DNA from: Alistipes sp.
Lineage (GTDB): Bacteria > Bacteroidota > Bacteroidia > Bacteroidales > Rikenellaceae
Direction of reading: 5' to 3'
DNA length: 64,000 nt
Assembly (NCBI GenBank): GCA_017463615.1
Contig: JAFTOU010000020.1
Location: 62,001 to 126,000, forward strand
Below the pieces are notes generated by a model that did not search any database, had not been told where the DNA came from, and worked only from the letters and a program-made list of their open reading frames with translations. Shown here in pieces: positions 8,676-38,195 of this stretch (position 1 is its first letter; each line of letters opens with the position of its first letter). The position numbers were made by a program, and so were the translations under genes.

Positions 8676-9983
8676 CTATTCCCACTCTATTGTTGCGTTT
8701 GGCTTCGGAGACATATCGTAGCAGACGCGGTTTACATTCTTCACCTCGGCGAGGATGCGGTCGGTGATGCGGCAGAGGATGTCCCAGTCGATGCGCTCGA
8801 TGGTTGCTGTCATAGCGTCCACGGTGTTTACAGCGCGGAGGATTACTGGGTACTCGTATGAGCGAGCGTTATCGCGCACACCTACACTCTTGAAGTCAGG
8901 CACCACGGTGAAGTACTGCCAAACCTTCTTATCCAGACCTGCCTTAGCGAACTCCTCGCGAAGGATAGCGTCAGACTCGCGTACAGCCTCCAGACGCTCG
9001 CGGGTGATAGCCCCCAGCACGCGCACGCCGAGACCTGGGCCTGGGAATGGCTGGCGGTATACCATCTCGTATGGCAGACCGAGCTCCAGACCGCAAGCGC
9101 GAACCTCGTCCTTGAAGAGCTGGCGCAGTGGCTCAACGAGCTCAAACTGCAGATCCTCTGGCAGACCACCCACATTGTGGTGTGACTTTACCATCTTAGC
9201 GGTCTTGGTGCCGCTCTCCACGATATCTGGGTAGATAGTACCCTGACCGAGGAAGTCAATACCGTCCAGCTTGCGAGCCTCCTCCTCAAATACGCGGATA
9301 AACTCGCTGCCGATAATCTTACGCTTCTGCTCAGGGTCAGCTACGCCCTCAAGTTTTGTGAGGAAGCGCTCTGTAGCATCTACATAGATAAGGTTTGCGC
9401 AGAGCTGGTTGCGGAACACCTCCACAACATTCTCGCTCTCGCCCTTACGCATCAGACCGTGATTTACATGCACACAGACCAAGTTCTCGCCAATAGCCTT
9501 GAGCAGCAGCGCAGCCACTACGGAGCTATCAACACCACCCGAGAGGGCAAGAAGTACCTTGCGGTTACCCACCTGACGGCGGATAAGCTCCACCTGGTCG
9601 TTCACGAAGTTGGTCATATTCCAGTTTGCCTCAGCCTTGCAGACATCAAAGACAAACTCCTTTACGGCAGCCTTGATAGCCTCTACATCGTCAGTAAACT
9701 GTGGCATCTTAACCTCGCACAGAGCCTTGCTGTGACCTGCAGCGATAACTGGGAAGCCAGCCTCGTATATCTCTGGGAGAACATCAATCTCCACACCGTC
9801 AATAACATTGTTCGGACCGCCGTTGATAATCACACCCTTAACATTTGGCAGAGCCTTGAGCTCAGCAGCGGTGATGTCGTGTGGGTATATCTCGCTGTAT
9901 ACACCAAGCGCACGGATGGCACGGGCAAGCACAGTATTCTCGTGGCTACCCAAGTCCAGAATAACAATCATGTCTTGTTTCAT
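8676..9983 (-). CDS. guaA: GMP synthase with a truncated, inactive glutaminase domain
   Basis: Converts XMP to GMP. The ATP-pyrophosphatase part is complete: LSGGVDSS P-loop at residues 147-154, then GQGTIYPD, KSHHNVGGLP, PFPGPGLGVRVLG and the C-terminal dimerisation domain ending IEWE. The protein has 435 residues against about 510-525 usually. The shortage lies in the N-terminal glutaminase: it begins normally (IVILDLGSHENTVLARAIR), but GVCYG with the nucleophile is replaced by AAGHS (81-85), and about 80 residues holding the catalytic His and Glu are deleted before the linker. The frame is open throughout, so this is a clean internal loss. I infer an ammonia-dependent enzyme unless a glutaminase subunit exists elsewhere. 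Downstream of guaB. Confidence 0.92.
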   Translation of the reverse strand: MKQDMIVILDLGSHENTVLARAIRALGVYSEIYPHDITAAELKALPNVKGVIINGGPNNVIDGVEIDVLPEIYEAGFPVIAAGHSKALCEVKMPQFTDDVEAIKAAVKEFVFDVCKAEANWNMTNFVNDQVELIRRQVGNRKVLLALSGGVDSSVVAALLLKAIGENLVCVHVNHGLMRKGESENVVEVFRNQLCANLIYVDATERFLTKLEGVADPEQKRKIIGSEFIRVFEEEARKLDGIDFLGQGTIYPDIVESGTKTAKMVKSHHNVGGLPEDLQFELVEPLRQLFKDEVRACGLELGLPYEMVYRQPFPGPGLGVRVLGAITRERLEAVRESDAILREEFAKAGLDKKVWQYFTVVPDFKSVGVRDNARSYEYPVILRAVNTVDAMTATIERIDWDILCRITDRILAEVKNVNRVCYDMSPKPNATIEWE

Positions 9984-10019
9984 AACAACCTGTAAATATA
10001 ATTTAGTAACCTAATAGTC

Positions 10020-11492
10020 TTACTCGCCGCGGGTGTAGTTAGGGGTCTCGCGGGTGATGGTGATGTCGTGTGGGTGGTTCTCAATAACGCCACTTGCAGT
10101 TACGCGGATAAAGCGAGCTGTGCGCAGTGTAGCCAAATCCTTAGCACCGCAGTAACCCATACCCGAGCGGATACCACCGATAAGCTGATATACAGTCTCG
10201 TTGAGTGCGCCCTTGAATGGCACGCGACCAACGATACCCTCTGGAACGAGCTTGTTGGCATTCTTCTCGCCATCCTGGAAGTAACGGTCTGTAGAGCCAG
10301 CCTTCATAGCGTCAATAGAGCCCATACCACGGTAGGTCTTGAACTTACGACCGTTGTAGATGATAGTCTCGCCCGGAGCCTCCTCAGTGCCAGCAAACAT
10401 TGAGCCACACATCACGCAGTCGCCACCAGCAGCCAGAGCCTTGACAATATCGCCAGAGTAGCGCAGACCACCATCAGCGATTACGGCAACATCCATATCC
10501 TTTACGGCATTTGATACATCAAAGATAGCGGTGAGCTGTGGAACACCTACACCTGCAATGATACGGGTAGTACAGATAGAGCCAGGGCCGATACCAACCT
10601 TGATACCGTCAGCACCATTCTCTGCCAGATAGCGTGCAGCCTCAGCAGTTGCGATATTACCTACGACAACATCCAGATGTGGATACTTCTCCTTGATGCG
10701 CTTGAGCAGGGTAACGATGTTCTTAGAGTGGCCGTGTGCAGAGTCAAGCACTACAGCATCTACAGACTCGGCAACCAGTGCATCTACACGCTCCATAGAG
10801 TCGGCAGTAACGCCCACACCTGCAGCTACGCGGAGACGACCCTTGCTATCCTTACAAGCATTTGGATGGTCCTGAACCTTTGTAAGGTCCTTGTATGTGA
10901 TAAGACCTACCAGATGACCCTCAGCGTCTACTACTGGCAGCTTCTCAATCTTGTTGCGAAGCAGTACCTCGGTAACATCCTCAGCCTCTGGGTTGGTGAT
11001 AGTTACCAGATTCTCGGAGGTCATAACCTCGGCAATCTGACGGTTCATATCTTTCTGGAAACGCAGGTCGCGGTTTGTAACGATACCTACCAGCATACGG
11101 TTCTCGTCTACCACTGGAATACCGCCAATCTTATTCTCGCGCATCAGTGCCAGAGCATCGCCCACGGTCTGCTCGCCAGTGATTGTCACTGGGTCGTAAA
11201 TCATACCGTTCTCAGCGCGCTTTACACGACGCACCTGAGCAGCCTGCTCGGCAATAGACATATTCTTGTGAATTACGCCGATACCACCCTCGCGAGCAAT
11301 GGCAATAGCCATCGGAGCCTCGGTTACGGTATCCATAGCAGCTGAAACAATAGGAATGTTAAGTGCAATGTTGCGTGAGAAACGACTCTTTACGCTAACC
11401 TCGCGTGGAAGTACCTCTGAGTAGGCTGGAATAAGCAACACATCATCAAAGGTCAAACCCTCTTGCTGAACTCTCTCTGTTAAAAACGACAT
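10020..11492 (-). CDS. guaB: Inosine-5'-monophosphate dehydrogenase
   Basis: Oxidises IMP to XMP, the first step of the GMP branch. Full length (490 residues): [13 protein letters not shown] at the start, two CBS domains (about 95-210), and the catalytic loop [13 protein letters not shown] with the active Cys near residue 306. Further on are the flap with GMGSIDAMK and the mobile arg region. Followed 36 bases later by guaA, so guaBA form one minus-strand unit, divergent from the purine operon. A leader of about 220 bases with a terminator-like hairpin lies between its promoter and ATG. Confidence 0.96.
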
Positions 11493-11720
11493 AACTTACT
11501 TTATTTTTATTTGTTAAACATACTCTAAATCCAAAAGGCGGGGCATAATTGTTTACAAAAAGCGAGGCACAATCGCACCCCGCTTAAATCACAAACTCCC
11601 CCACTCAGCTACGCACAGACCGCACACGCCCTTACCATTAAGCCCGAACTGCACGCTGCAAATAATCGGACCGCTAAGACGAATGTGGTTAAGTGCTCTC
11701 ATCGGTAGAATTTATTTGTG
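11493..11720 (-). promoter_or_regulatory. Structured guaB leader with terminator-like hairpin (possible attenuator)
   Basis: The 5' leader of guaB, about 220 bases. Near 11560-11585 an 8-bp stem with one G-T pair (AAGCGGGG with CCTCGCTT on the minus strand) is followed by TTTT. A second block, TGCCCCGCC (11537-11545), could pair instead with the same GCGGGG, giving mutually exclusive structures. Upstream, another hairpin (arms GTCCGA and TCGGGC) is visible near 11645-11680. It matches no riboswitch class that I recognise. Regulatory role is inferred from this layout only. Confidence 0.45.
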
Positions 11721-11751
11721 CAAAGGTAGGGATTGTTTTGCAACTAAACAA
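11721..11751 (-). promoter_or_regulatory. guaB promoter
   Basis: On the minus strand TTG (11749-11751), 20 bases of spacer, then TACCTTTG (11721-11728), a good Bacteroidota -33/-7 pair. It is divergent from the purine operon promoter about 110 bases away. Confidence 0.7.
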
Positions 11752-11853
11752 CTTTTTTTGAAGAAAAAATTGAGAAAATAAAATTTTGTTCATTTCGTTG
11801 AAAAAGTGTTGAAAAAAGTGCGCGGAAAATTTTTCTGTACCCGTAAAGTTTTA

Positions 11854-12100
11854 TATTTTTGCCGTATGAAAGAGTTTAAGGCGCATTTCGGGTTTGTTAT
11901 GGGTTCGGGAAGTGTTTTCCGAAAGTCGGCTCGGGTGTGTAAATGTGCGAAAAGATAGCCACTACAACGGATATGTTGCGGTGGCTTTTGCATTGAAAAA
12001 AGTGGGCAGATATGGCTGCGTGGTTGGAGGCTGTGCGGTATGATGATGGTGCTCACAGGGATGGTGAAAACTAAAAAATAAACTAAATAAACAGAAAACT
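11854..12100 (+). promoter_or_regulatory. Purine operon promoter and structured leader with terminator-like hairpin
   Basis: TATTTTTG at 11854-11861 is the likely -7 box; no clear TTTG stands 20 bases upstream. The transcript would then have a leader of about 230 bases. It contains an 8-bp hairpin (11904-11923) and a stronger one at 11957-11986 (AGCCAC...CAAC with GTTG...GTGGCT) followed at once by TTTTG, like an intrinsic terminator ahead of purE. No small reading frame or known riboswitch is recognised. Attenuation is inference. Confidence 0.45.
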
Positions 12101-12568
12101 ATGAAGGTAGCAGTTATTATGGGTTCTACAAGCGACTGGGGCGTAATGTCGGCAGCCGTAGAGACTCTTGAGCAGTTAGGCATTGAGTATGAGAAGCGCG
12201 TAATCAGCGCACATCGTACTCCGCATTTGATGTTTGAGTATGCAACCACAGCTCGCGAGCGTGGCATTGGTGCTATTATCGCCGGTGCAGGTGGCGCAGC
12301 ACATGTTGCAGGTGTTACAGCGGGTCTTACAACCGTGCCGGTTATCGGTGTGCCAATCAAGACCTCGGCTCTTGGTGGTCTGGACTCCCTGCTCTCTATT
12401 GTGCAGATGCCTGGTGGCGTTCCAGTATCTACAACGGCTATCAATGGTGCTAAGAATGCGGCTCTTATTGCAGCATCTATCTTTGCCCTTACCGATCCTG
12501 AGCTTGAGGCTCGCCTTATTGAGTTCCGCAAGAAGCAGACTGAGACTGTCCTTGCAGCAGAGTTGTAA
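12101..12568 (+). CDS. purE: N5-carboxyaminoimidazole ribonucleotide mutase
   Basis: A 155-residue class I PurE that converts N5-CAIR to CAIR. Motifs: MGSTSDWGVM near the N-terminus, SAHRTPHLMFEYA with the catalytic His, and IIAGAGGAAHVAGVTA. Class I enzymes normally need PurK, which is not in this window, and purC is also absent from the operon. First gene of the nine-gene purine operon, 12 bases before purL. Confidence 0.95.
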   Translation: MKVAVIMGSTSDWGVMSAAVETLEQLGIEYEKRVISAHRTPHLMFEYATTARERGIGAIIAGAGGAAHVAGVTAGLTTVPVIGVPIKTSALGGLDSLLSIVQMPGGVPVSTTAINGAKNAALIAASIFALTDPELEARLIEFRKKQTETVLAAEL

Positions 12569-12580
12569 TATCTACAGATT

Positions 12581-15500
12581 ATGAAAAACTATAGAATTTT
12601 TGTTGAGAAATATGCCGAGTTTCAGGTGGAGGCTCACGCTCTGCAGAGCGAGCTGAACGAGAACCTCGGCCTTGCAATCAAGTCGCTCCGCGTGCTGAAT
12701 GTCTACGACCTATTCGGCTTTACTGAGGAGCTTATTGAGCGTTGTCGCTATGCAGTCTTTGGCGAGATTGTCACCGACCGCGTTACCGACCAGTGCCCAC
12801 TTGAGGGTCTGAAGTATCTGGCTGTGGAGTGCCTGCCGGGTCAGTTTGACCAGCGCGCCTCTTCGGCTGTAGACTGCGTGCGCCTTATTGAGCCTACGGC
12901 AGATGTTCGCATCCGCAGCTCAAAGTTGCTTATCTTTGATAATGGCGTGTCGGATGCAGATATTGAGGCTGTGAAGCGTTACTACATCAACGCCGTAGAG
13001 TCTCGCGAGAAGGATTTGAGCCGCCTTTCGGATAACGAGCAGGCAGAGATTCGTCCTGTGCCTATCCTTGAGGGCTTTACCGATATGACCGAGGAGGAGC
13101 TTGCCCCTTACTGCAAGGCAAATTCGCTGGCTATGAATGCCGATGACCTGCGCGAGGTTGTAAACTACTTCAAGGGCGAGGGTCGTAACCCTTCGCAGAC
13201 GGAGCTTCGCATCCTTGATACATACTGGTCAGACCACTGCCGCCACACAACCTTCACTACGGAGATTACCGAGATAAAGATTGACGACTCGTTTATGAAG
13301 AACGAGTTTGAGGCTGCCCTTGCCGAGTTCGGTATGATGCGCAGTGAGCTCGGTCGTGAGCATAAGAGCCTCTGCCTTATGGAGCTGGCTACTATCGGTG
13401 CTCGCTACCTTCGTCACAAGGGTCTGCTGGATGATATGGAGCAGAGCGAGGAGAATAACGCTTGCAGCATCTTCGTAGATGTAGATGTGGATGGTCAGAC
13501 AGAGAAGTGGTTGCTCCAGTTTAAGAACGAGACCCACAACCACCCAACCGAGATTGAACCATTCGGTGGTGCATCAACCTGTCTTGGTGGTGCTATTCGT
13601 GACCCACTGTCAGGTCGTGCCTATGTATATCAGGCTATGCGCGTGACAGGTGCTGGCGATATATATAAAGGTGTTGCTCAGACAATGGCTGGCAAGCTGC
13701 CTCAGCGCGTAATCTCTCGCAAGGCTGCTGCGGGCTACTCAAGCTATGGTAACCAGATTGGTCTTGCTACTACACATGTACGCGAGATTTACCACGATAA
13801 CTATGTAGCAAAGCGCCTTGAGGTGGGCGCTGTTGTAGGTGCTGTTAAGGCTGAGAATGTTCGCCGTGAGTCTCCAGCTCCGGGCGATGTTGTACTGCTT
13901 ATGGGTGGTCGCACAGGTCGTGACGGTATCGGCGGTGCTACAGGTTCGTCTAAGCAGCATACTGCCGCTTCACTTGAGGAGTGCGGCTCGGAGGTGCAGA
14001 AGGGTAATGCTCCTGAGGAGCGTAAGATTCAGCGTCTGTTCCGTCGTGCAGATGTTACCCGCCTGATTAAGAAGTCTAACGACTTTGGTGCTGGTGGTGT
14101 GAGCGTGGCTATTGGCGAGCTTACAGATGGTCTGGATATCTACCTTGACCGCGTGCCAGTGAAGTATAGCGGTCTGAACTCTACTGAGCTTGCTATTAGC
14201 GAGTCGCAGGAGCGTATGGCTGTGGTTGTGGAGCGCAAGGATATGGAGACTATGATGGCTCTGTGTGCAGAGGAGAATGTTGAGGTTACCTATGTTGCCG
14301 ATGTGACAGATACCTCGCGTATGCGTATGTACTTCCACGACCGCCTTATCGTAGACCTCAAGCGCGAGTTTATTGATAGCGCAGGTGCAAAGCACTATAC
14401 ACAGATTACTATCCCAGCAGTAGCGGAGTGCAACCCATTTGCACGCACTGTTGAGGGCGAGAATATTGAGCAGAAGATGGTCGCTAACCTCAAGGATTGG
14501 AATGTGGTTAGCCAGAAGGGTCTTATTGAGATGTTTGACTCTACCATCGGTGCCTCTACCGTGCTTATGCCATTTGGTGGTCGTACACAGGCTACCGAGA
14601 GTCAGGTATCTGTGCAGACGCTACCAGTGCGCCATGGTAAGACCAACACTGCAAGTATTATGGCATTTGGCTACAACCCTTATATCTCAAGCTGGAGTCC
14701 ATACCACGGTGCACAGTATGCCGTTGTTGAGGCTGTGGCAAAGGTTGTTGCTGCAGGTGCACGATTTGATAAGATGCGATTCTCATATCAGGAGTACTTT
14801 GAGCGTATGACCGACCGTAGCTCGTGGGGTAAGCCTATGGCTGCTCTGCTCGGTACAATCCGTATGCAGAAGGCTCTCGGCCTGCCATCTATCGGTGGTA
14901 AGGACTCTATGAGTGGTACTTTCAACGATATCAATGTGCCTCCAACCCTTATCGCATTCGGTATCACTACTGTAGATGCTCGCACAGTTATCAGCCCAGA
15001 GTTCAAGGCTGCAGGACATAAGCTCTACCTTGTAAAGCACACTCCAAATGCGGACTATACCCCTAATTGCGACGCTCTGCGTCACAACTTCACACTGGTT
15101 ACCGACCTTGTGGAGCAGGGTAGCGTTGTTGCCGCTTACGCTGTAGGCTTTGGTGGCGTAGCTGAGGCGGTGGCAAAGATGAGCTTCGGTAATGAGATTG
15201 GTGCAGAGCTCAATATCTCTGAGAGCGAGCTGTTTGACTATAACTACGGCTCTATCCTTGTTGAGAGCACCGCGGAGATTTCGGATGCTGCAGCGCTGCT
15301 TGTGGGTCAGACCGTAGAGCAGAAGAGCATCACTGTAAATGGCACTGCTATCGCTCTGGATACCCTGCTTGAGGCAAATACAACCCGCTTTGAGAGCGTA
15401 TATCCATCTAAGGGTCTGAAGGGCGAGCCTTGCCGCGAGGCAAACTGCACCGCCGCAGCACCTAAGTACAAGGGTGGCAAGGTTGATACCGTTAAGGTCT

Positions 15501-16288
15501 ACCTGCCAGTATTCCCAGGTACTAACTGCGACTACGATACTGCTCGCGCCTTTGAGCGTGCGGGTGCAAAGACCGAGATTGGCGTATTCTGCAACCTTAC
15601 CTCGGATGCTATCTTTGACTCTATCAACCGTATGTGCGAGGCTATTGACAATAGCCACATCCTGGTACTGAGTGGTGGCTTCTCGCTCGGTGACGAGCCA
15701 GATGGTAGTGGTAAGTTTATCGCAGGCGTGCTCAACAATGCACAGGTTACCAAGTCTGTTCACGCACTGCTTGAGCGTGGCGGTCTGATTTTGGGTATCT
15801 GCAACGGTTTCCAGGCACTGGTTAAGTCGGGTCTGCTGCCTTATGGTCGCCTGGGTATGGTCACTACCGCATCGCCAACCCTCTTCCATAACGATATTCA
15901 CCGTCACATCTCGCAGATTGTAACCACCCGCGTGGGAACAACCGCTTCTCCATGGTTGTCATCATTCAAGGTGGGCGATATGCACTCTATAGCTGTCAGC
16001 CACGGCGAGGGTAAGTTTGTCGTAAGTGCAGAGCTTGCCGAGGAGCTGTTTGCTAACGGTCAGGTGGCGTTCCAGTATACAGACGCCCAGGGTCGTGTGA
16101 CTACCGATGCTCCATATAACCCTAACGGCTCGTCGTACGGTATTGAGGGTATCATCAGCCGCGACGGTCAGATTCTGGGTAAGATGGGCCATACAGAGCG
16201 ATATACCGAGGGCCTGTTCAAGAATATCGCTGGCGAGAAGTGTCAGAATATCTTTGATAACGCAGTTAAATATTTTACAGAGGAGTAA
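12581..16288 (+). CDS. purL: Phosphoribosylformylglycinamidine synthase, large single-chain form
   Basis: Converts FGAR to FGAM using ATP and glutamine. At 1235 residues it is the fused type: PurS-like N-terminus, linker, two ATP-binding synthase halves (FKNETHNHPTEIEPFGGASTC region, GGKDSMSGTF), and a C-terminal glutaminase. Unlike PurF, CarA and GuaA in this window, the glutaminase triad is intact: Cys1074 in GICNGFQ, His1204 and Glu1206 in GHTER. It therefore serves as an internal control for the loss seen in the other three. Spaced 12 bases from purE and 19 from purF. Confidence 0.96.
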   Translation: MKNYRIFVEKYAEFQVEAHALQSELNENLGLAIKSLRVLNVYDLFGFTEELIERCRYAVFGEIVTDRVTDQCPLEGLKYLAVECLPGQFDQRASSAVDCVRLIEPTADVRIRSSKLLIFDNGVSDADIEAVKRYYINAVESREKDLSRLSDNEQAEIRPVPILEGFTDMTEEELAPYCKANSLAMNADDLREVVNYFKGEGRNPSQTELRILDTYWSDHCRHTTFTTEITEIKIDDSFMKNEFEAALAEFGMMRSELGREHKSLCLMELATIGARYLRHKGLLDDMEQSEENNACSIFVDVDVDGQTEKWLLQFKNETHNHPTEIEPFGGASTCLGGAIRDPLSGRAYVYQAMRVTGAGDIYKGVAQTMAGKLPQRVISRKAAAGYSSYGNQIGLATTHVREIYHDNYVAKRLEVGAVVGAVKAENVRRESPAPGDVVLLMGGRTGRDGIGGATGSSKQHTAASLEECGSEVQKGNAPEERKIQRLFRRADVTRLIKKSNDFGAGGVSVAIGELTDGLDIYLDRVPVKYSGLNSTELAISESQERMAVVVERKDMETMMALCAEENVEVTYVADVTDTSRMRMYFHDRLIVDLKREFIDSAGAKHYTQITIPAVAECNPFARTVEGENIEQKMVANLKDWNVVSQKGLIEMFDSTIGASTVLMPFGGRTQATESQVSVQTLPVRHGKTNTASIMAFGYNPYISSWSPYHGAQYAVVEAVAKVVAAGARFDKMRFSYQEYFERMTDRSSWGKPMAALLGTIRMQKALGLPSIGGKDSMSGTFNDINVPPTLIAFGITTVDARTVISPEFKAAGHKLYLVKHTPNADYTPNCDALRHNFTLVTDLVEQGSVVAAYAVGFGGVAEAVAKMSFGNEIGAELNISESELFDYNYGSILVESTAEISDAAALLVGQTVEQKSITVNGTAIALDTLLEANTTRFESVYPSKGLKGEPCREANCTAAAPKYKGGKVDTVKVYLPVFPGTNCDYDTARAFERAGAKTEIGVFCNLTSDAIFDSINRMCEAIDNSHILVLSGGFSLGDEPDGSGKFIAGVLNNAQVTKSVHALLERGGLILGICNGFQALVKSGLLPYGRLGMVTTASPTLFHNDIHRHISQIVTTRVGTTASPWLSSFKVGDMHSIAVSHGEGKFVVSAELAEELFANGQVAFQYTDAQGRVTTDAPYNPNGSSYGIEGIISRDGQILGKMGHTERYTEGLFKNIAGEKCQNIFDNAVKYFTEE

Positions 16289-16307: not shown

Positions 16308-17672
16308 ATGAGTGTTTTAGGTGTTTATGGCGTAGAGCACGCCTCGTCGCTTATCTACTACGGTCTGCATACAATGCAGCACCGTGGTCAGGAGGGATGC
16401 GGTATGGTCTGCGTAGGTGAGGATGGAAAGATGTGCCGCCATCGTGGTATGGGACTGGTGTCAGAGGTCTTTAACGAGCAGAAGATTGCCTCGTTGGATG
16501 GGACTATGGGTGTTGGGCATGTGCTCTATACTGGTGCTGCTTCGCGCAGTATGGATAATGTGCAGCCGCTCTACTTCCACCACGGCTCTGGCGACTTTGC
16601 CTTGGCGCATAATGGTAATGTGGTAAATGCCGAGCAGCTGACCGACGAGCTGGAGCGAAAGGGCTCGCTCTTCCACTCCCACTCCGATGCGGAGTTGCTG
16701 GCTCACCTTATCAAGAAGGATAATCCGGACGAGCCGCGTATCTACTCAATCATTGAGGCGCTCAAGCAGATGGAGGGCGCATACGCATTTCTGATAATGA
16801 CCAAGAATCGCCTCTATGCTTGCCGCGATAGATATGGTTTCCACCCACTCTCTATCGGTAAGTTGGGCGAGGGATATGTTGTAAGTAGCGAGACTTGTGC
16901 TTTTGATACTATCGGTGCACAGTTTATCCGCGATGTGGCTCCAGGCGAGATTGTTACAATCGACCGCAAGGGTATCCGCTCGTCTATCTACTCCGACTGC
17001 TGCCAGTGCAAGATGTGCGCTATGGAGTATATCTACTTTGCCCGCCCAGATAGCGATATTGAGGGGTGCAATGTCCACGCATATCGCAAGGAGTCGGGTC
17101 GTAGATTGTTCCAGGAGGCTCCTGCCGAGGCCGATATTGTTGTCGGCGTGCCAGACTCAAGCCTCAGTGCCGCACAGGGTTATAGCGAGGCGAGTGGTCT
17201 GCCATACGAGATGGGTCTGATAAAGAACAAGTATGTGGGTCGTACATTCATCCAGCCGTCGCAGGCTCTGCGCGAGAAGGGTGTGCGTATGAAGCTATCA
17301 CCAGTGCGTAGTATCGTTAGTGGTAAGCGCGTGGTGCTTGTGGATGACTCTATCGTGCGTGGTACAACATCGCGTCGTATTGTAAATATGCTCCGCGAGG
17401 CGGGTGCTACGGAGGTGCATGTGCGTATTGCCAGCCCTACGATGACCCACCCTTGCTTCTATGGCGTAGATACATCAACCCTTGAGGAGCTGATGCTTGC
17501 CCGTATGAATGTGGAGCAGGCTTGTAAGGCTATCGGTGCAGATTCGCTGGCATTCCTCTCCTATGACTCTACGCTGCAGTCGGCTATCGGCAGAACGGAT
17601 ATGTGCTTGGCTTGCTTTGATGGCAAGTATCCAACACCTATATTCAAGAGTATTGAAGATGCAAACAAATAA
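16308..17672 (+). CDS. purF: Amidophosphoribosyltransferase lacking the glutaminase nucleophile
   Basis: Makes phosphoribosylamine from PRPP, the first committed purine step. The B. subtilis-like Fe-S type is clear: [14 protein letters not shown], cluster cysteines in [22 protein letters not shown] and [12 protein letters not shown], and the PRPP loop [16 protein letters not shown]. The nucleophile Cys that should follow the start or a short propeptide is missing: the protein begins MSVLGVYG where relatives have CGVFGIWG. An in-frame TAA at 16293-16295 excludes an upstream start. The glutamine-binding Arg is Leu73 ([10 protein letters not shown]), while HNGN and SDAE remain. I infer ammonia-dependent synthesis by an intact transferase domain. 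Confidence 0.93.
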
Positions 17673-29621: not shown

Positions 29622-30692
29622 CTACTCTGCTTTGGTGTCGCAGTAGTAGCAGCGGTGGATGCCGTTGTCGGCGGTGTAGAAGTAGCGTTCCATAGGTTCG
29701 TTGTTGGTGATGCACTTAGGGTTAGGGCAGCGCATACCTTTAACTTCGCCCTTCTCGTGGCGCTCGACCATCTGCTCGCCCTTCCAGCGCATAAGCGAGA
29801 GGATAAGTGCCATACGGACAAACTTACCATTCTCAACCTGGCGGAAGTATGCAGCACGAGGGTCGGCATCTACCTCGCGGGTAATCTCGTTCACGCGTGG
29901 CAGTGGGTGGAGAACAGCCATACGCTCCTTAGCCAGCTTCATACGCTCGGCGTCAAGGACGAAGCAGTCCTTAACCTTGTCGTAGTCAGCCTCGCAAGCG
30001 AAGCGCTCCTTCTGCACGCGGGTCATATAGAGGATATCCAGCTCGCCGATAACAGACTCAATGCTCTCAGCCTCGGTGTACTCAATGCCGTACTTATCGC
30101 AGATGTCGGTCTTGATATAGTCTGGCAGGCGGAGCTCCTCTGGCGAGATAAGGACAATCTTAACGCCATTGTAGCGCACCAGCGCCTTGATTAGCGAGTG
30201 CACGGTACGACCATAGAGCAGATCGCCGCAGAAACCGATAGTGATATTATCTACGCCGCCCAGCTCGCGGGTTATGGTCAGCAGGTCTGTAAGGGTCTGT
30301 GTAGGGTGCGAGTGGCTACCGTCGCCAGCGTTGATAATTGGCACTGGAGAGACAGCCGAAGCTGCAAGCTGTGCACCCTCAATATGGTGGCGCATAGCGA
30401 TAATATCTGCAAAGCAGCCTACCACGCGGACAGTATCCTCTACGGTCTCGCCCTTGCTTACAGAGGACGATGCTGCATCCGAGAAGCCGAGCACATTACC
30501 ACCGAGCTCCATCATTGCCGAGGTGAAGCTCAGGCGGGTGCGGGTACTTGGCTCGTAGAATAGGGTAGCGAGCTTTTTGCCCTTCATCTTCTCGCAGTAC
30601 GCCTCGCGGTTGGCGATAATATCCAGAGCTAAAGAGACAATGTCGTCAGTCTCCTTGCGAGTCAAGTCGGTAGGGTCAATCAGGTGTCTCAT
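29622..30692 (-). CDS. pyrB: Aspartate carbamoyltransferase fused to a PyrI-type zinc ribbon
   Basis: Forms carbamoyl-aspartate. Catalytic residues are in place: EPSTRTRLSF, SVSKGE, HPTQTLTD, MTRVQKERF and HPLPR. The usual length is about 305-310 residues, but this has 356: after the last helix comes MRCPNPKCI ... HRCYYCDTK (C-x4-C and C-x2-C), the same cysteine pattern as the zinc domain of the regulatory subunit PyrI. The nucleotide-binding allosteric domain of PyrI is absent. In E. coli the zinc domain binds the catalytic chain, so the tail may stabilise the trimer or its contacts; loss of CTP/ATP control is inferred. Last gene of the operon, cut off from pyrE by a long palindrome. Confidence 0.94.
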   Translation of the reverse strand: MRHLIDPTDLTRKETDDIVSLALDIIANREAYCEKMKGKKLATLFYEPSTRTRLSFTSAMMELGGNVLGFSDAASSSVSKGETVEDTVRVVGCFADIIAMRHHIEGAQLAASAVSPVPIINAGDGSHSHPTQTLTDLLTITRELGGVDNITIGFCGDLLYGRTVHSLIKALVRYNGVKIVLISPEELRLPDYIKTDICDKYGIEYTEAESIESVIGELDILYMTRVQKERFACEADYDKVKDCFVLDAERMKLAKERMAVLHPLPRVNEITREVDADPRAAYFRQVENGKFVRMALILSLMRWKGEQMVERHEKGEVKGMRCPNPKCITNNEPMERYFYTADNGIHRCYYCDTKAE

Positions 30693-30719
30693 AGTTTTAG
30701 GGTTTTAAGTTTTTTATAT

Positions 30720-30883
30720 AGTAACTAATTTGAATTTGTTTGCGAGATTATTTAAGATTTGTTTTGTGACCATTTCTTGCTATAGTTTAAGGCGCATAGG
30801 GGTTCCTATGTAACGAGAACTATGGCAAGAAAGGGTCGTAAACAATATTAAAGAACGAAGTAAATAAGTTCAAATTAGTTACT
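30720..30883. repeat. 164-bp imperfect palindrome between pyrE and pyrB
   Basis: Outer arms of 15 bp are perfect (30720-30734 and 30869-30883); middle arms of 20 bp match at 18 positions (30768-30787 and 30818-30837); the tip is CATAGG/CCTATG around GGTT. All three share a centre near 30802. The right end covers the pyrE stop codon. In RNA it would form one long hairpin between two operon genes. It could be a MITE-like insertion, a processing site, or a partial terminator. Confidence 0.8.
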
Positions 30884-31508
30884 TAATCCAGCTCTCGTCT
30901 GATGGGTTGTTGCGGAATGCAAGGATGCGCTCCTTCCACTCTGGGGCGATGTAACCCTCCTCGGCAGCAACCTCTACAAGTGCGTCAAGGTTTGAGAGCG
31001 AGTAGTTTACGGTATTTGCAGCGGCGATACGCTCTACACCGCGCTTCATGCCGTAGGTGAAGATGCTAACGATACCCAACACCTCGGCACCAGCCTCGCG
31101 CAGAGCCTCTACAACCTCAATGCAGCTGCCACCGGTAGAGATAAGGTCCTCTACGACAACAACCTTAGTGCCCTTCTCCAGCTTACCCTCAATGCGGTTT
31201 GTACGACCGTGGTCCTTTGCGCCGCTACGAACATAACCCATAGGCATATCAAGGATAGTTGCCACGATAGCTGCGTGAGCGATACCTGCAGTAGATGTAC
31301 CCATAAGGCACTCGCACTCAGGGAAGTGCTTGCGTACAAGCTCTGCAAGACCAGCCTCAACCTTCTCGCGTGCAGATGGAGCGGTGAGAATCAGGCGGTT
31401 GTCACAGTATATAGGGCTCTTGATACCACTTGCCCAGGTAAATGGCTGCTCTGGACGCAAGAATACTGCGCTGATAGAGAGCAACTCTTTTGCAATCATT
31501 TTCTCCAT
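30879..31508 (-). CDS. pyrE: Orotate phosphoribosyltransferase
   Basis: Attaches orotate to PRPP to give OMP. 209 residues with [14 protein letters not shown] near the N-terminus, the flexible loop [16 protein letters not shown], and the PRPP-binding loop [13 protein letters not shown] (about residues 115-127). Lies 41 bases after pyrF. Its stop codon is inside the long palindrome. Confidence 0.95.
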
Positions 31509-31549
31509 AGTATATATTTTTTAAGGTTTTTTGTACTCGTTTTCTGCTA

Positions 31550-32248
31550 CTACTCGCCGATAAACTCGCGGCAGCAACGCTCATAAGCCGCTACAGGGTC
31601 GTCAGCAGCGGTTACTGGGCGACCTACGACGATGAAGTCTGAGCCAATCTCGCGTGCGCGTGCTGGGGTGGTAATGCGTACCTGGTCGTCAGCGGCTGCA
31701 TCTGCAAAGCGAATACCTGGGGTGATGGTCTTAAACTCAGCGCCGCAGTGCTGCTTCACAAGCTCAGCCTCCAGTGGTGAGCATACTACGCCATCCAGAC
31801 CCGCCTCCTTTGCATTCTCGGCATACTTGGCAATAGTGTCGTTGATAGTTGCGCCAATAAGAAGCTCGCGCTGCATACGCTCCTCGCTGGTAGAGGTGAG
31901 CTGAGTTACGGCGATAAGCAGTGGGCGGGTGCCATCTGGGCGGGTAAGACCCTCCAGGGCTGCGCGCATCATATCTACAGTACCTGCAGCGTGAACATTG
32001 GTCATATCTACATCAAGGCGAGAGAGTACGCTCATAGCCTTGCGCACGGTGTTTGGAATATCGTGCAGCTTGAGGTCAAGGAAAATCTTGTGACCACGCG
32101 CCTTAATCTCGCGTACAATATCTGGTCCGCAGGCATAGAAGAGCTCCATACCAATCTTTACAAATGGCTTACGACCAGTAAAACGGTCAAGGAAAGCCAG
32201 CGTCTGCTCTTTGCTACTGAAGTCGCAGGCAATAATTACATCTCTCAT
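31550..32248 (-). CDS. pyrF: Orotidine 5'-phosphate decarboxylase
   Basis: Makes UMP from OMP. 232 residues, TIM barrel: VIIACDFSS at the first strand, [12 protein letters not shown], the catalytic array [13 protein letters not shown], and phosphate-site motifs TPGIRF and [12 protein letters not shown]. Short B. subtilis-like form. 21 bases after pyrD. Confidence 0.95.
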
Positions 32249-32269
32249 AGTTTTAGGTATGTCTATTTG

Positions 32270-33184
32270 TTATTTTACTATTCCAATAATATCTCTAAGT
32301 CGCTCAATGCCAAGGCGTTCCATAACCTGCGGCAGAGACTCAATAATATCCTTGCAAGCAAATGGGTTGCGCAGGTTCTCGGCACCAACCTGTACGGCAC
32401 TTGCACCTGCCATCATCATCTCCACCACATCCTCAGCCGTAGCTACACCACCGCAGCCGATAACTGGTATCTTGCAGGCGTTAGTCACCTGATAGACCAT
32501 ACGCACAGCCACTGGGAAGATAGCGCGACCTGAGAAGCCACCCATCTTGTTGGCAATAACGGGACGACGACGGGCAATATCTATACGCATACCCAGCATT
32601 GTGTTTATCAGTGTAAGTCCGTCAGCACCAGCATCTTCGCACGCGCGGGCGATAGAGACAATGTCTGTCACATTTGGGCTGAGCTTGATAAATACTGGCT
32701 TGGTAGTAACAGCCTTAACGGCAGCAGTTACGGCAGCAGCGCTCTCTGGCGATGTGCCGAAGGCCATACCTCCGTTGTGGACATTTGGACAAGAGACATT
32801 AACCTCAATAATGCCCACCTGCTCCTCGCCGTCAATCTTACGGCAGCACTCGGTGTACTCCTCAATGCTAAAGCCGCTGATGTTGGCGATGATAGGCTTG
32901 CGGAAGCACTTGCGCAGCGCTGGCAGCTCGTGGCTGATAACGGCGTCAATGCCTGGGTTCTGCAGACCTACGGAGTTAATCATACCCGAACTGCACTCGG
33001 CAATGCGAGGCGTTGGGTTACCAAAACGAGGCTCAGCAGTAGTGCCCTTCACAGAGATTGAACCGAGGATATTTATATCGTATACCTCCGCCATCTCCAG
33101 TCCGAAGCCGAAGGTGCCACTTGCGGGGATGACTGGGTTGTCAAGCTCCACACCGCAGAGGGTGGTTGTTAAATCTCTTACCAT
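32270..33184 (-). CDS. pyrD: Dihydroorotate dehydrogenase, catalytic subunit (class 1B)
   Basis: Oxidises dihydroorotate to orotate. 304 residues: NPVIPASGTFGFG, the catalytic Cys in EVNVSCPNVHNGG as in class 1B enzymes, FIKLSPNVTDI, and GCGGVATAEDV near the FMN phosphate. It overlaps pyrK by 7 bases, matching the two-subunit PyrDB/PyrK enzyme that passes electrons to NAD. Confidence 0.95.
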   Translation of the reverse strand: MVRDLTTTLCGVELDNPVIPASGTFGFGLEMAEVYDINILGSISVKGTTAEPRFGNPTPRIAECSSGMINSVGLQNPGIDAVISHELPALRKCFRKPIIANISGFSIEEYTECCRKIDGEEQVGIIEVNVSCPNVHNGGMAFGTSPESAAAVTAAVKAVTTKPVFIKLSPNVTDIVSIARACEDAGADGLTLINTMLGMRIDIARRRPVIANKMGGFSGRAIFPVAVRMVYQVTNACKIPVIGCGGVATAEDVVEMMMAGASAVQVGAENLRNPFACKDIIESLPQVMERLGIERLRDIIGIVK

Positions 33185-33915
33185 AGTATCTCCTCCTTTC
33201 TAAATACAGGTCCCTCTTTGCATACTCTCTTTGCGCCCGAAGCGGTCTGGATGGAGCAACCCATACAGATACCAAATCCGCAACCCATACGCTCCTCAAG
33301 GCTAATCTCGCCAGGGATGGTGAGTGCCGAGCAGAGTGCCTTGAGCATCGGCAGCGGTCCGCAAGAGTAGAAGTAGTCGGTCTCAATGTCACTCTGAGCA
33401 ATAGCATCGGTAACAAAACCCTTGATGCCATAGCTGCCATCTGCCGTAGCAACAACAACCGTAACACCCAACGCCTCAAACTGCTCGCGGTAGAATATCT
33501 CCGCAGCGGTATTAAAGCCAAGCACAACGGTCACGCGCTTACCCTGCGCCGTAAGGTTACGCGCAAGGCGGTAGAGCGGTGGAACACCTACGCCACCACC
33601 CACAAGTAGGGCGTGGCTGCACTCTACGCTGTCGTTAAAGCCATTGCCAAGACCCGTAAGGGTGTCAATCGTAGCACCAGCACCGAGCTCTGCCATCTGG
33701 GCAGTGCCCTTGCCCACAACCTTGTATATAAGGGTAAGAGTACCCTCGTCGTAGTTGCAGACAGAGATAGGGCGGCGCAGGAACAGACCCTCTATAGAGA
33801 GCTCCACAAAGCCACCTGGGCATGTTACTGCCGAGGTGTCGCCCTGAAGAACCATCTCGTAGACCGTGTCGGTCAGAGGACGGTTGGAAACAACGGTAAG
33901 AATAGTTTGCTTCAT
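33178..33915 (-). CDS. pyrK: Dihydroorotate dehydrogenase electron transfer subunit
   Basis: Electron-transfer partner of PyrD, with FAD and a 2Fe-2S cluster. 245 residues: FAD-binding FLRRPISVCNYDE, the NAD-binding LLVGGGVGVPPLYRLA, and C-terminal cluster cysteines in ERMGCGFGICMGCSI ... KRVC. Start placed at the ATG (MKQTILTVV) just after the carB stop; the open frame extends further but would run into carB. Overlaps pyrD by 7 bases. Confidence 0.94.
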   Translation of the reverse strand: MKQTILTVVSNRPLTDTVYEMVLQGDTSAVTCPGGFVELSIEGLFLRRPISVCNYDEGTLTLIYKVVGKGTAQMAELGAGATIDTLTGLGNGFNDSVECSHALLVGGGVGVPPLYRLARNLTAQGKRVTVVLGFNTAAEIFYREQFEALGVTVVVATADGSYGIKGFVTDAIAQSDIETDYFYSCGPLPMLKALCSALTIPGEISLEERMGCGFGICMGCSIQTASGAKRVCKEGPVFRKEEILW

Positions 33916-33916
33916 A

Positions 33917-36900
33917 TTAGTTGTCGTAATCTGCGTCAATAGTTGAAACACCGAGTGTAATCTCCTCAAGCACCTGAAGCAGTACGCTTACGGTCTCAAG
34001 GGATGTGAAGATAGTCACATTGTTCTCAACCGCTGCACGGCGAATCTCGTAGCCATCAAGGCGTGCGCTGTGCTGGTTGAGGTCAATGGTGTTGATAACA
34101 TAGTTCACATGGCCACGGCAGAGTGAACGGTAGATATCGTCACTACCCTCAATGAGCTTGCTCAGCTTGCGGGTGCGGATGCCGTGTGTACGCAGGAAGT
34201 CGGCAGTACCCTTTGTAGCCTCAATATTGAAACCGAGGTTGTAGAAGCGACGGATAAGTGGCAGAGCCTTCTCCTTATCGTGGTCGGCAAGGGTGACGAG
34301 GATAGTACCGTAGTTCACTACATCCATACCCGATGCCTGCAGCGACTTGTAGAGTGCGCGGGTCATAGAGTTGTCGTAGCCGATAGCCTCACCTGTAGAC
34401 TTCATCTCTGGCGAGAGGTAGGTGTCAATACCCTTAATCTTAGCAAACGAGAATGCAGGGGTCTTGACAAAGAAGCGCTTGCGCTCACGACCGTAGACCT
34501 CGGTAATGCCCTGCTCCTTGAGCGAGTGACCCAGCATTACGCGGGTAGCAATCTTCGCCATAGGGACATTGCAAGACTTTGAGAGGAACGGTACAGTACG
34601 CGACGAGCGTGGGTTTACCTCAATAACATAGACCTTGTCCTCGTTATCAACGATAAACTGAATATTGTAAAGACCAACGATACCGATAGCCTTACCCAGG
34701 CGAACAGTATAGTCAATCATCTTCTGCTTAACAGCATCTGAGAGGCTGAACGATGGGTATACACTGATACTATCGCCAGAGTGGATACCTGTGCGCTCAA
34801 CATGCTCCATAATACCAGGGATAAAGACATCAGTGCCGTCGCAGATAGCGTCTACCTCAGCCTCCTTACCCATGATATACTTATCTACAAGCACTGGAGA
34901 GTCCTCGTTAATCTCTACGGCATTGTGCAGGTAGTGGCGCAGAGCCTGCTCGTTACCTACAATCTGCATAGCACGACCACCGAGCACGAAACTTGGACGG
35001 ACAAGCACTGGGTAACCGATATTCTCAGCTGCCGCAACACCATCCTCAATCTCGGTTACTGCCTTAGCCTGTGGCTGCGGAATACCCACCTCGCGCATAA
35101 TAGCCTCAAAGAGCTTACGGTCCTCAGCCTTGTCAATAGCCTCAAGGTCTGTACCGATAATCTTCACACCCATCTGCACCAGCGGCTTAGCAAGGTTGAT
35201 GGCTGTCTGACCTCCGAGGGTTACGATAACGCCCTCTGGCTGCTCGTGGTGGATGATATTCATCACATTCTCAACGGTCAGCGGCTCAAAGTAGAGCTTG
35301 TCGGAGATAGTATAGTCGGTAGATACGGTCTCAGGGTTGTTGTTGATGATAATAGCCTCGTAGCCAGCCTCGCGGATAGCCCAGATAGCGTGTACAGTAG
35401 AGTAGTCAAACTCCACACCCTGACCGATACGGATAGGGCCCGAGCCGAGCACTACAATCTTCTTGCGGTTTGATACAACAGACTCATTCTCAGTCTCGTA
35501 GGTAGAGTAGAAGTATGGGATGTAGCGGTCAAACTCGCCAGAGCAGGAGTCAATAATCTTGAATACAGGCTTGATGTCGTAGCTCTCGCGCAGGGTGAAT
35601 ACCTCGCTCTCGGTCATACCCCAGAGCTGACCGATATACTTATCGCCAAAGCCCAGACGCTTAGCCTCCAGCAGGGTAGCCTTGTCGCCCTTGTTCTGAG
35701 CCACGCGACGCTCCATGCGGACAATATTCTTGAACTTCTCAAGGAAGAGCATATCAACCTTCGTGCGGTCGTAAATCAGTGAGCGGTCAATGCCTCGGCG
35801 CAGAAGCTCTGCAATGGCATAGATGCGGTCGTCAGTGCCGCGGGTGATATACTGGAGCATCTCCTGAGTATCCATATCGTCAAACTTCTTGTTGTGGATA
35901 TGGCAGACACCGGTCTCAAGTGAGCGCAACGCCTTGAGCAGCGACTCCTCAATAGTGCGACCGATACTCATAGCCTCGCCCGTAGCCTTCATCTGAGTAC
36001 CCAGCTCGTTAGATGCCTCGCTGAACTTATCAAATGGGAAGCGTGCAACCTTGGTAACGATATAGTCGATAGATGGCTCGCAGCAAGCAGGCATATCCTC
36101 AATCATAATCTCGTCCAGAGTCATACCCACAGCAACCTTAGCCGTTACGCGAGCGATAGGGAAGCCGCTGGCCTTAGATGCCAAAGCAGAAGAGCGAGAT
36201 ACGCGAGGGTTTACCTCAATGATATAGTACTTGAACGAGAGTGGGTCAAGGGCAAACTGCACATTACAACCACCCTCAATCTTCAGTGCGCGAATAAGTT
36301 TGAGTGCGCTATCGCGGAGCATCTGGAACTCCTTGTTAGAGAGGGTCTGCGCAGGTGCAACAACGATACTATCGCCCGTATGGATACCCACAGGGTCTAC
36401 ATTCTCCATGCTGCAGATTGCAATCGCCGTGTCGTTCTTGTCGCGCATAACCTCAAACTCAATCTCCTTGTAGCCCTTGATACTCTTCTCTACAAGCACC
36501 TGGTGTACTGGAGATACAGCCAGCGCATTACGCATCATCTCGCGCAGCTGCTGCTCGTTGTCGGCAAAACCACCACCCGAGCCACCGAGTGTAAAGGCAG
36601 GGCGGAGAACTACTGGGTAACCAATCTTCTGAGCAACCACTACAGCCTCATCTACAGAGTATACAATCTCTGATGGGATAACTGGCTCGCCTAGCTTGAT
36701 ACAGAGCTCCTTGAACAGCTCGCGGTCCTCAGCCTGCTCAATACTCTGGAACGATGTGCCGAGAATCTCTACCTGGCACTCCTCCAGAATACCCTTCTTA
36801 GCCAGCTGCACGGCGAGGTTAAGACCTGTCTGACCACCCAGACCCGGAACGATAGCATCTGGACGCTCGTAGCGGATAATCTTTGCAACATACTCTAACT

Positions 36901-37108
36901 TCAGAGGCTCCATATATACCTTGTCGGCAATGAAGGTGTCGGTCATAATGGTTGCAGGGTTGGAGTTCACAAGGATAACCTCGTAACCCTCCTCCTTAAG
37001 TGCCAGACACGCCTGTGTACCTGCGTAGTCAAACTCTGCTGCCTGACCAATAACTATCGGACCTGAGCCGATAACCATAACTTTCTTAATATCTGTTCTC
37101 TTAGGCAT
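33917..37108 (-). CDS. carB: Carbamoyl-phosphate synthase large subunit
   Basis: Makes carbamoyl phosphate from ammonia, bicarbonate and two ATP. 1063 residues with two homologous ATP-grasp halves (VMVIGSGPIVIGQAAEFDYAG start, GGSGGGFADN, EVNPRVSRSSALASKA; second half VVLGSGPIRIGQGVEFDYS, EVNPRSSRTVPF) and a C-terminal MGS-like allosteric domain. It appears intact and can use ammonia directly, as known for this family. Overlaps carA by 8 bases. Confidence 0.96.
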   Translation of the reverse strand: MPKRTDIKKVMVIGSGPIVIGQAAEFDYAGTQACLALKEEGYEVILVNSNPATIMTDTFIADKVYMEPLKLEYVAKIIRYERPDAIVPGLGGQTGLNLAVQLAKKGILEECQVEILGTSFQSIEQAEDRELFKELCIKLGEPVIPSEIVYSVDEAVVVAQKIGYPVVLRPAFTLGGSGGGFADNEQQLREMMRNALAVSPVHQVLVEKSIKGYKEIEFEVMRDKNDTAIAICSMENVDPVGIHTGDSIVVAPAQTLSNKEFQMLRDSALKLIRALKIEGGCNVQFALDPLSFKYYIIEVNPRVSRSSALASKASGFPIARVTAKVAVGMTLDEIMIEDMPACCEPSIDYIVTKVARFPFDKFSEASNELGTQMKATGEAMSIGRTIEESLLKALRSLETGVCHIHNKKFDDMDTQEMLQYITRGTDDRIYAIAELLRRGIDRSLIYDRTKVDMLFLEKFKNIVRMERRVAQNKGDKATLLEAKRLGFGDKYIGQLWGMTESEVFTLRESYDIKPVFKIIDSCSGEFDRYIPYFYSTYETENESVVSNRKKIVVLGSGPIRIGQGVEFDYSTVHAIWAIREAGYEAIIINNNPETVSTDYTISDKLYFEPLTVENVMNIIHHEQPEGVIVTLGGQTAINLAKPLVQMGVKIIGTDLEAIDKAEDRKLFEAIMREVGIPQPQAKAVTEIEDGVAAAENIGYPVLVRPSFVLGGRAMQIVGNEQALRHYLHNAVEINEDSPVLVDKYIMGKEAEVDAICDGTDVFIPGIMEHVERTGIHSGDSISVYPSFSLSDAVKQKMIDYTVRLGKAIGIVGLYNIQFIVDNEDKVYVIEVNPRSSRTVPFLSKSCNVPMAKIATRVMLGHSLKEQGITEVYGRERKRFFVKTPAFSFAKIKGIDTYLSPEMKSTGEAIGYDNSMTRALYKSLQASGMDVVNYGTILVTLADHDKEKALPLIRRFYNLGFNIEATKGTADFLRTHGIRTRKLSKLIEGSDDIYRSLCRGHVNYVINTIDLNQHSARLDGYEIRRAAVENNVTIFTSLETVSVLLQVLEEITLGVSTIDADYDN

Positions 37109-38195
37109 TGTTGCTATCCTCCATCAGTTTAATGAATTTATCAAAAAGGTAGGTGCTGTCATTTGCTCCTGGAGCACCCTCAGGGTTGTACTGGACAGAG
37201 AATACTCTATCCTTGCGGCACTCTACGCCAACAACCATATCGCCTACGACCGTTGTGTGGCTCACCTGAAGTGCTGTACCCTCAAGCGACTGGCGATTTA
37301 CGACATACTGCAGAGCCATACCGGTGGTCTCAATACGCTTAGATATTGCGTTGCGCACCGAGCGGCTTACGCTGCGGTTGCCCGTAGGGTTTACATCGCA
37401 CTGAGCACCGTATGCCAAGCAAACGAGCAGGTGACCGAGGCTGATACCCATCATCGGCAGCTCGCCCTTGAACTCGCGGATAAGCGACACAACCTCTGGA
37501 AGCTCTGTCGGAGCACCTGGACCGTTAGAGATAAGTATGCCGTGCGGGTTGAAGCCGCGAATCTCCTCAATAGGGGTGTTGTAAGGAACGATGACAACAT
37601 TGCAACCACGACGGTTGAGCTCCTCAATAATTGTACGCTTAACACCGCAGTCTACAACCACTACATCGTACTTGTGGTTTGGTGTGCGGGAGTACCAGCG
37701 CTTGCGGCAGCTAACCTTAGCTACGACATTCTCCTCCGCTGGGGTGTTCTCAATCAGCGCAACAGCCTCCTCTACGCTCATGCTTGCATCAACGATAGCT
37801 GCACGCATAGCGCCCTTGTCACGCAGGTGACGGGTAAGTGCGCGGGTGTCAATGCCGCTGATGCCTGGGATGTTGCACTCCTCCATAATCTCAGCGATGG
37901 TCTGTGTGAAGCGGAAGTTGCTCGGTGTGGTGCAGTACTCGCGTACCACCAGACCACCGATACCAATCTGGCGAGACTCAAAGTCCTCGTCTGCAATACC
38001 GTAGTTGCCAATCACTGGGTAGGTCATAACCACCAGCTGGTTGGTGTAGCTCGGGTCGGAGAGAATCTCCTGATAGCCAACCACCGAGGTGTTGAAAACA
38101 ATGTTGCAGATGGCTGTACGGTTGGCACCAAAGCCGTGGCCGTAAAACTGCGTACCGTCTGCAAGTACTAATTTCTTGTCAGGTTGTGTTGTCAT
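37101..38195 (-). CDS. carA: Carbamoyl-phosphate synthase small subunit with inactive glutaminase
   Basis: Normally hydrolyses glutamine and channels ammonia to CarB. 364 residues; the N-terminal CarA domain is well conserved (LADGTQFYGHGFGA, VFNTSVVGYQEILSDPSY, IDTRALTRHLRDKGAMRA) and the glutaminase part keeps SNGPG. The nucleophile Cys is Ser252 (GISLGH, AGC codon at 37440-37442) and the catalytic His is Asn337 (VQYNPEGAPG, AAC at 37185-37187). The usual GGNHPV and QNHGF segments are also changed. In E. coli, Cys-to-Ser at this place abolishes glutamine use. I infer a structural subunit serving ammonia-dependent CarB. Confidence 0.94.
   Translation of the reverse strand: MTTQPDKKLVLADGTQFYGHGFGANRTAICNIVFNTSVVGYQEILSDPSYTNQLVVMTYPVIGNYGIADEDFESRQIGIGGLVVREYCTTPSNFRFTQTIAEIMEECNIPGISGIDTRALTRHLRDKGAMRAAIVDASMSVEEAVALIENTPAEENVVAKVSCRKRWYSRTPNHKYDVVVVDCGVKRTIIEELNRRGCNVVIVPYNTPIEEIRGFNPHGILISNGPGAPTELPEVVSLIREFKGELPMMGISLGHLLVCLAYGAQCDVNPTGNRSVSRSVRNAISKRIETTGMALQYVVNRQSLEGTALQVSHTTVVGDMVVGVECRKDRVFSVQYNPEGAPGANDSTYLFDKFIKLMEDSNNA

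Follow-up and report, generated by a model that had tools for sequence, protein, structure and literature searches.

What nitrogen source do the amidotransferases of nucleotide synthesis use when their glutaminase domains have lost the residues that hydrolyze glutamine? This question is raised by a 64,000-nucleotide stretch of an Alistipes sp. genome (contig JAFTOU010000020.1, positions 62,001 to 126,000; the window), which encodes GMP synthase (GuaA), amidophosphoribosyltransferase (PurF) and both subunits of carbamoyl phosphate synthetase (CarA and CarB). Textbook accounts treat glutamine amide transfer through channelled ammonia as almost universal. The initial annotation of the window described GuaA, CarA and PurF as three dead amidotransferases. 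All three are dead, and the list was too short: CTP synthase (PyrG) and both NAD synthetase (NadE) copies seen in the same genome, encoded outside the window, are affected too. At least five enzymes, belonging to three unrelated glutaminase classes (class I triad, N-terminal nucleophile [Ntn] and nitrilase), have lost glutaminase residues in one genome, which also holds two living controls, PurL and GlmS.

The gene carA (37101..38195, reverse strand) encodes the small subunit of carbamoyl phosphate synthetase. In an alignment with a solved homologue, GICLGH is changed to GISLGH and QGHPE to QYNPE, which confirms the previously noted replacement of Cys by Ser and of His by Asn; the Glu is retained. 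It matches TIGR01368 over the full length (386.1 bits; cut-off 307.35) and fails at the catalytic Cys and His, where Ser and Asn are found. The gene for the ammonia-using partner, carB (33917..37108, reverse strand), is full length, and its NCBIfam profile match supports the earlier view that CarB is complete.

GuaA is a 435-residue GMP synthase (guaA, 8676..9983, reverse strand) with a cut-down class I glutaminase domain. The match to this domain ends at residue 84 and resumes at residue 94, which aligns with E. coli residue 182, so the region of the catalytic Cys, His and Glu is missing. Residues 1 to ~84 of the glutaminase part are left, and the corresponding profile, TIGR00888, is matched only at positions 1-75 of 188 (47.2 bits; cut-off 172.15). 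The ATP-pyrophosphatase (ATPPase) and C-terminal parts are complete, with a score of 465.7 bits for TIGR00884 (cut-off 338.75).

In PurF (purF, 16308..17672, forward strand) the Ntn glutaminase domain is altered and the phosphoribosyltransferase part is conserved. In the alignment with B. subtilis PurF, Met1-Ser2 takes the place of Cys1-Gly2, and GHVRY reads GHVLY, with Leu for Arg. An earlier start codon that would supply the Cys was considered and ruled out, because an in-frame TAA, read by eye, precedes the ATG by five codons. These results bear out the claim that PurF has no N-terminal Cys. The protein scores 506.6 bits with its family profile, TIGR01134 (cut-off 350), and fails at the N-terminal nucleophile. 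The frames of purF, carA and guaA are open over their whole length, as had been described, and the TIGR00884 and TIGR01134 scores agree with the statement that the synthase and transferase parts are conserved.

The altered PurF is more than a chance event, being shared by many relatives. A search with the window's own PurF as bait gave 348 named PurF loci; of the 80 best, 27 have the Met and Leu changes, 10 retain the Cys with Leu in place of Arg, and 43 retain both residues. All 28 loci with the RGIG label, from ruminant gut sites, belong to the 37 affected ones; the 43 others include none. Because the bait was the window's own protein and the groups are related to each other, this link to the ruminant hindgut is an association and not a test of ecology. 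All of the 37 affected loci come from records labelled as metagenome-assembled genomes (MAGs), as might be expected of an assembly or gene-calling artefact. We find an artefact scarcely conceivable: the same states recur in many MAGs from separate projects, the residues differ, the frames are mostly intact, and the upstream stop excludes a misplaced PurF start.

The two affected enzymes encoded elsewhere in the genome show other changes. In PyrG, the GICLGMQC of intact relatives reads GVGLGMHC; the catalytic Cys is replaced by Gly, and His and Glu are kept. It passes TIGR00337 (725.7 bits; cut-off 462.75) and fails at the Cys. For NadE we compared the long protein of ~630 residues (locus L338) with that of genome G086, the one genome of the genus in which all five enzymes were read as intact. 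The nitrilase triad Glu-Lys-Cys has become Gln-Arg-Gly (LPQL, VPRSY and EVGDD, as opposed to FPEL, VPKSY and EICED). There is a second NadE, of 529 residues, whose presumed site of the nitrilase Cys reads VGDD (the two were equated by eye) in this genome and in seven of eight others, classic Alistipes included (loci L314-L321 and L331; L320 was not matched by the pattern). The ~529-residue form is probably a dead copy found throughout the genus. PF02540 has five matches in the window's genome, of which the two examined are these NadE proteins (L314 and L338); GuaA also matches PF02540, through its ATPPase part.

Could glutamine still be hydrolyzed, by a moved nucleophile or by unusual chemistry? 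CarA has a Ser at the site, and PurF could have an N-terminal Ser after removal of the Met. However, the PurF Ser aligns with Gly2 and not with Cys1, and E. coli PurF with Cys changed to Ser had no detectable glutamine activity (PubMed Central [PMC] record PMC3261824). The CarA nucleophile is lost in 47 of 74 genomes of the genus, and the residue in its place varies (G in 17, S in 16, D in 7, A in 3, N in 2, E in 2). In NadE all three of Glu, Lys and Cys are gone, and in GuaA the whole region is missing. We consider retained hydrolysis very improbable; from known chemistry, it is nearly certain that these enzymes would have no glutaminase activity.

We searched the genome of the window (G000), which is 93% complete, for proteins that could take over the lost function. 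A search with PF00117 recovered CarA, PyrG and GuaA only, all of them dead, and PF13522 recovered only GlmS and PurF. There is one CarA, one GuaA and one PyrG, and the two NadE copies seen are both dead. Second intact copies of purF, guaA and carA, which the initial annotation had proposed to look for, did not turn up in these profile searches, and no intact paralogue of any of the five enzymes was found in the 93%-complete genome. Likewise, neither GltB (PF00310) nor a true AsnB (a long PF00733 match) was found in G000; the latter is present in 10 of 101 genomes of the genus. There are two glutamine synthetase-type genes (PF00120 matches).

PurL and GlmS are the only glutamine amidotransferases seen in this genome that retain the residues for hydrolysis. 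PurL, the large formylglycinamidine ribonucleotide synthase (purL, 12581..16288, forward strand), was said to keep its triad, and it does: the class I motifs GICNGFQ and SHGEG are intact, as are the PurL motifs at all 101 loci read in relatives. GlmS has MCGIVGY and HTRWATHG; the MCG and HTRWATHG motifs were present in all 19 genomes fetched, of which seven belong to the subgroup of the window, and VHNG was matched in 14 of the 19. Because GlmS and PurF carry the same kind of N-terminal Ntn domain, the contrast between dead and living domains falls within one superfamily.

A separate glutaminase or amidase might supply the ammonia, by docking or by a local rise in concentration. A candidate lies 37 bases downstream of guaA, in a gene for a nitrilase-superfamily amidase (7832..8638, reverse strand; best NCBIfam match PRK10438, just below its cut-off), and such a gene is also near guaA at six loci of the same subgroup (L005, L007, L008, L009, L011 and L017). 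Within the flanks covered (~0.3-2.4 kb), however, it was seen in that subgroup only, with none at L004 or at short-GuaA loci of other groups, and one such protein would have to serve three unrelated docking surfaces. There is no fourth PF00117 protein in G000 (glutaminases of other families were not searched). We therefore think a separate supplier improbable. With respect to the initial annotation, which had proposed parallel loss together with either an ammonia-based metabolism or a shared glutaminase, the first part is supported (residues lost, synthase parts kept, no intact paralogue found), as is the ammonia-based reading, and a shared class I enzyme is not.

If the glutaminase domains are dead, they should have diverged faster than their partner domains. 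We used the pooled ratio of glutaminase-domain distance to partner-domain distance, by group, with the window's own subgroup as A1. For NadE the ratio was 2.83 in A1 and 2.29 in group B, where the domain is dead, compared to 0.70, 0.70 and 0.71 in groups A2, C and D, where it is intact. For PyrG it was 10.2 in A1 and 3.27 in B, compared to 2.45 in D and 1.94 in classic genomes. PurF had ratios of 1.75, 1.94, 1.21 and 2.59 in affected groups and 1.07 in the intact named loci; CarA had 2.02 (B), 1.93 (C), 1.74 (D) and 1.33 (A2), compared to 1.15 when intact. The ratio for PurL, which is alive, was not raised in the same groups (0.71 in the window's subgroup, then 0.99, 0.46 and 0.90, compared to 0.93). 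The dead domains are relaxed for NadE, PyrG and most groups of PurF and CarA, with CarA in A1 as the exception.

How would such enzymes obtain nitrogen? CTP synthase is known to accept ammonia, PurL uses ammonia poorly, and GlmS is not known to use it. We consider it likely that CarAB, GuaA, PurF, PyrG and NadE of this bacterium are ammonia-only enzymes in vivo, as is vertebrate carbamoyl phosphate synthetase 1 (CPS1). Their glutaminase domains would have been inactivated by mutation, by truncation, or by replacement with a glutaminase-less relative, and cytosolic ammonia would enter the synthase site directly. Most of the dead domains would be retained, probably for folding, subunit contact or regulation. 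PurL and GlmS would keep glutamine hydrolysis because they probably use ammonia badly or not at all. With enough intracellular ammonia, glutamine hydrolysis in the other enzymes would be dispensable, and each glutamine spared would save one ATP of glutamine synthetase; the glutamine synthetase-type genes would stay for the needs of PurL, GlmS and protein synthesis. An ammonia-rich ruminant hindgut may be the permissive setting.

Work on other organisms is consistent with this explanation. E. coli PurF in which the Cys was changed to Ala or Ser lost the use of glutamine and kept that of ammonia (PMC3261824), GMP synthases take external ammonia in vitro (PMC10526850), and CPS1 uses ammonia from its surroundings and has a dead, Ser-bearing glutaminase domain (PMC4655335). 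A search of PMC3815217 found no passage on ammonia use by PurL.

We then determined how often the losses recur in the genus. We searched 101 genomes (stated completeness 63-99%), and 85 of these entered a table of catalytic residues, with CarA read in 74, GuaA in 45, PyrG in 48, NadE in 61 and PurF in 47. GuaA lacks the Cys in 32 of its 45 genomes. PyrG is lost in 17 of 48, at the Cys in 12; in the other five the Cys is present, but His is replaced by Asn and the Gln of GMQ by Glu. NadE is lost in 17 of 61. PurF has the Met and Leu changes in 18 of 47 genomes, Cys with Leu in eight, and a different, MSGFFG-type sequence in 13; it is intact in eight. All five enzymes are lost in 11 genomes, six from subgroup A1 and five from group B; in this count PyrG was scored by its His in two of the 11, and the group B PurF is the MSGFFG type.

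The initial annotation had asked whether the losses occur together in related genomes. They do recur jointly, and they look nested. Where both enzymes were read, no genome that has lost GuaA retains an intact CarA. Losses of PyrG and NadE are found in genomes that have lost CarA as well, save for NadE-dead G036 and G017, in which CarA was not found. G017 (L374, L399, L282) is an exception to the nested order: its NadE has Gly for Cys, and its GuaA and PyrG are intact.

For the history of the losses we used a tree of 74 genomes, made by a quick method from CarB and the synthetase part of NadE, in which 27 of 71 inner branches are starred. The fewest changes on this tree are three each for CarA, PyrG, GuaA and PurF and two for NadE, and the CarA nucleophile residue itself changes eight times. 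Constraining all CarA-dead genomes to one clade gave p = 0.011 in an approximately unbiased (AU) test, and the same constraint on all short-GuaA genomes was rejected (p = 0.00028). The clades for these tests were partly named after the tree had been seen, and the tests were done without the long-branch genomes G102 and G090, which stay in the tree used for counting. The recurrent losses use different residues, and they come in part from replacement by the short GuaA and by a PurF relative that lacks the Cys.

The short GuaA is a separate, conserved lineage, 86-96% identical to the window's protein even in distant genomes. In pairwise comparisons of 14 genomes, short proteins were 87-95% identical to each other both between and within groups, long proteins 76-93%, and short to long 46-51%; CarB and NadE of the same genomes showed no such split. 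Both forms of guaA adjoin guaB in relatives, as in the window (guaB, 10020..11492, reverse strand; named from its translation). The separate conserved lineage, the retained guaB-guaA locus and holders that do not form a clade make replacement likelier than recent deletion. Of what had been said about GuaA, the loss of the triad region is confirmed by alignment; a recent deletion seems an unlikely origin for it. It is more likely that the short form spread by horizontal replacement, already without its glutaminase; the alternative is one long branch followed by exchanges or losses. No source outside the genus was found: across 24 genomes from other families, identity in the synthase part did not exceed 53%. 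The glutaminase remnant of the short GuaA is strongly conserved across relatives, and for that reason likely has a structural role. An AlphaFold2 model of the short GuaA, from 15 close sequences, was too poor to use (mean predicted local distance difference test score 59; predicted template modelling score 0.38).

The MSGFFG-type relatives of PurF (L219-L231; 29-32% identity) also lack the Cys. The protein of L219 has 473 residues, with a 12-residue stretch read as a phosphoribosyl pyrophosphate (PRPP) motif, and the type scores 186 bits with the NCBIfam purF profile, under the cut-off of 350. We considered and rejected independent decay of a group B PurF as its origin, as it is a different Cys-less relative. 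Among PF13522 matches, group B genomes have no canonical PurF and have the MSGFFG relative in place of it, and we infer that this protein may act as a PRPP amidotransferase. G073 and G095 appear to have both the canonical and the MSGFFG form, judged by frame length and score.

The repeated losses in the genus, by different routes, lead us to a broader proposal: that a whole free-living gut lineage gave up glutamine as general nitrogen donor, and that only enzymes unable to do without it (PurL, and GlmS where present) keep their glutaminases. We hold this to be probable, with reservations. Several observations weigh against the ammonia-only explanation or its wider form. An intact paralogue was possibly missed in the 93%-complete genome. 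Some otherwise dead genomes keep PyrG (G062 and G112) or NadE (groups A2 and C). The divergence ratios are not uniform: the NadE ratio in intact classic genomes was 1.53 and not 0.7; the PyrG ratio was 12.8 between the two genomes of group C in which the Cys is present (one pair); the PurF ratio in dead A2 (1.21) was no higher than in intact group D (median 1.20); and CarA of A1, the window's own subgroup, was not relaxed (0.98, compared to 1.15 when intact). In addition, PyrG was not found by whole-genome searches in 23 of the 101 genomes, including 8 of 38 good ones (for example G001, G019 and G029), and the pattern may partly be a wider loosening of nucleotide synthesis.

The last point bears also on a different explanation, that the pathways are decaying, with nucleotides mostly salvaged and the enzymes on their way out. 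The missing PyrG and the patchy GlmS would fit with decay. However, the window keeps long gene runs for both pathways: a purine run at 12-24 kb, read from translations as purE-L-F-M-N-H-D followed by folD and purB, and a pyrimidine run at 29-40 kb that includes carB and carA (most names again from translations). The synthase domains are conserved, as is the short GuaA across distant genomes, and the glutaminase domain of PurL is not relaxed, which makes sense only with a running purine pathway. Altogether, decay seems decidedly improbable.

The ammonia-only state has precedents in single enzymes. Vertebrate CPS1 is an ammonia-only carbamoyl phosphate synthetase whose glutaminase-like domain has Ser for Cys (human; PMC4655335), the same change as in the window's CarA. 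CPS1 is fused and serves ammonia detoxification, whereas here CarA and CarB are separate proteins encoded within a run of pyrimidine genes, and the change extends to four other enzymes of the genome. Single-domain NAD synthetases belong to a glutamine-using family and are reported to use free ammonia in vivo; they have no glutaminase domain and are proposed to be ancestral (PMC3376133), whereas here the domain is present and dead. PurF' of Crenarchaeota is a PurF-like protein without the N-terminal Cys (PMC3261824), but it is a second copy beside a Cys-bearing PurF, and here the altered protein is the only PurF found in the genome. The archaeal two-subunit GMP synthase has an ATPPase that is apart from its glutaminase and takes external ammonia in vitro (PMC10526850); the glutaminase is kept as a second subunit, and none was seen here with PF00117. 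Table 1 of PMC3376133 lists no PyrG (800 genomes), GuaA (730) or CarAB (600) without a glutaminase component, where components and not residues were counted. We found no report of a joint loss of such glutaminases in the open-licence PMC literature.

If correct, nucleotide and NAD synthesis in these bacteria would draw straight on ammonia from the environment. This would run counter to a view of long standing, recounted in PMC3376133, by which no ATP-dependent enzyme of this kind other than glutamine synthetase takes up free ammonia in vivo. The genus, from G086 with all five enzymes intact to the 11 genomes with none, is a natural series in which the order, cost and reversibility of the losses, and the structural role of the dead domains, can be tested. 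NCBIfam names the window's GuaA and CarA, and the PyrG of the same genome, as glutamine-hydrolyzing. The change is therefore invisible to automatic annotation, and metabolic models for nitrogen in the ruminant hindgut would assume the wrong nitrogen source.

Two further observations concern GlmS and CarA. GlmS is patchy over the genus, as judged by PF13522 matches, and none is listed even for some classic genomes that are nearly complete, among them G086; amino sugars in genomes without GlmS may come from salvage or from a deaminase working in reverse. A second, distant CarA (35-37% identity) is present outside the window's group, at L114 (G073), L115 (G095) and L401 (G097), the last known from its search match alone. 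In L114 and L115 this second CarA has an intact GICLGN and stands beside a dead CarA, and it is possible that these genomes have re-acquired the use of glutamine.

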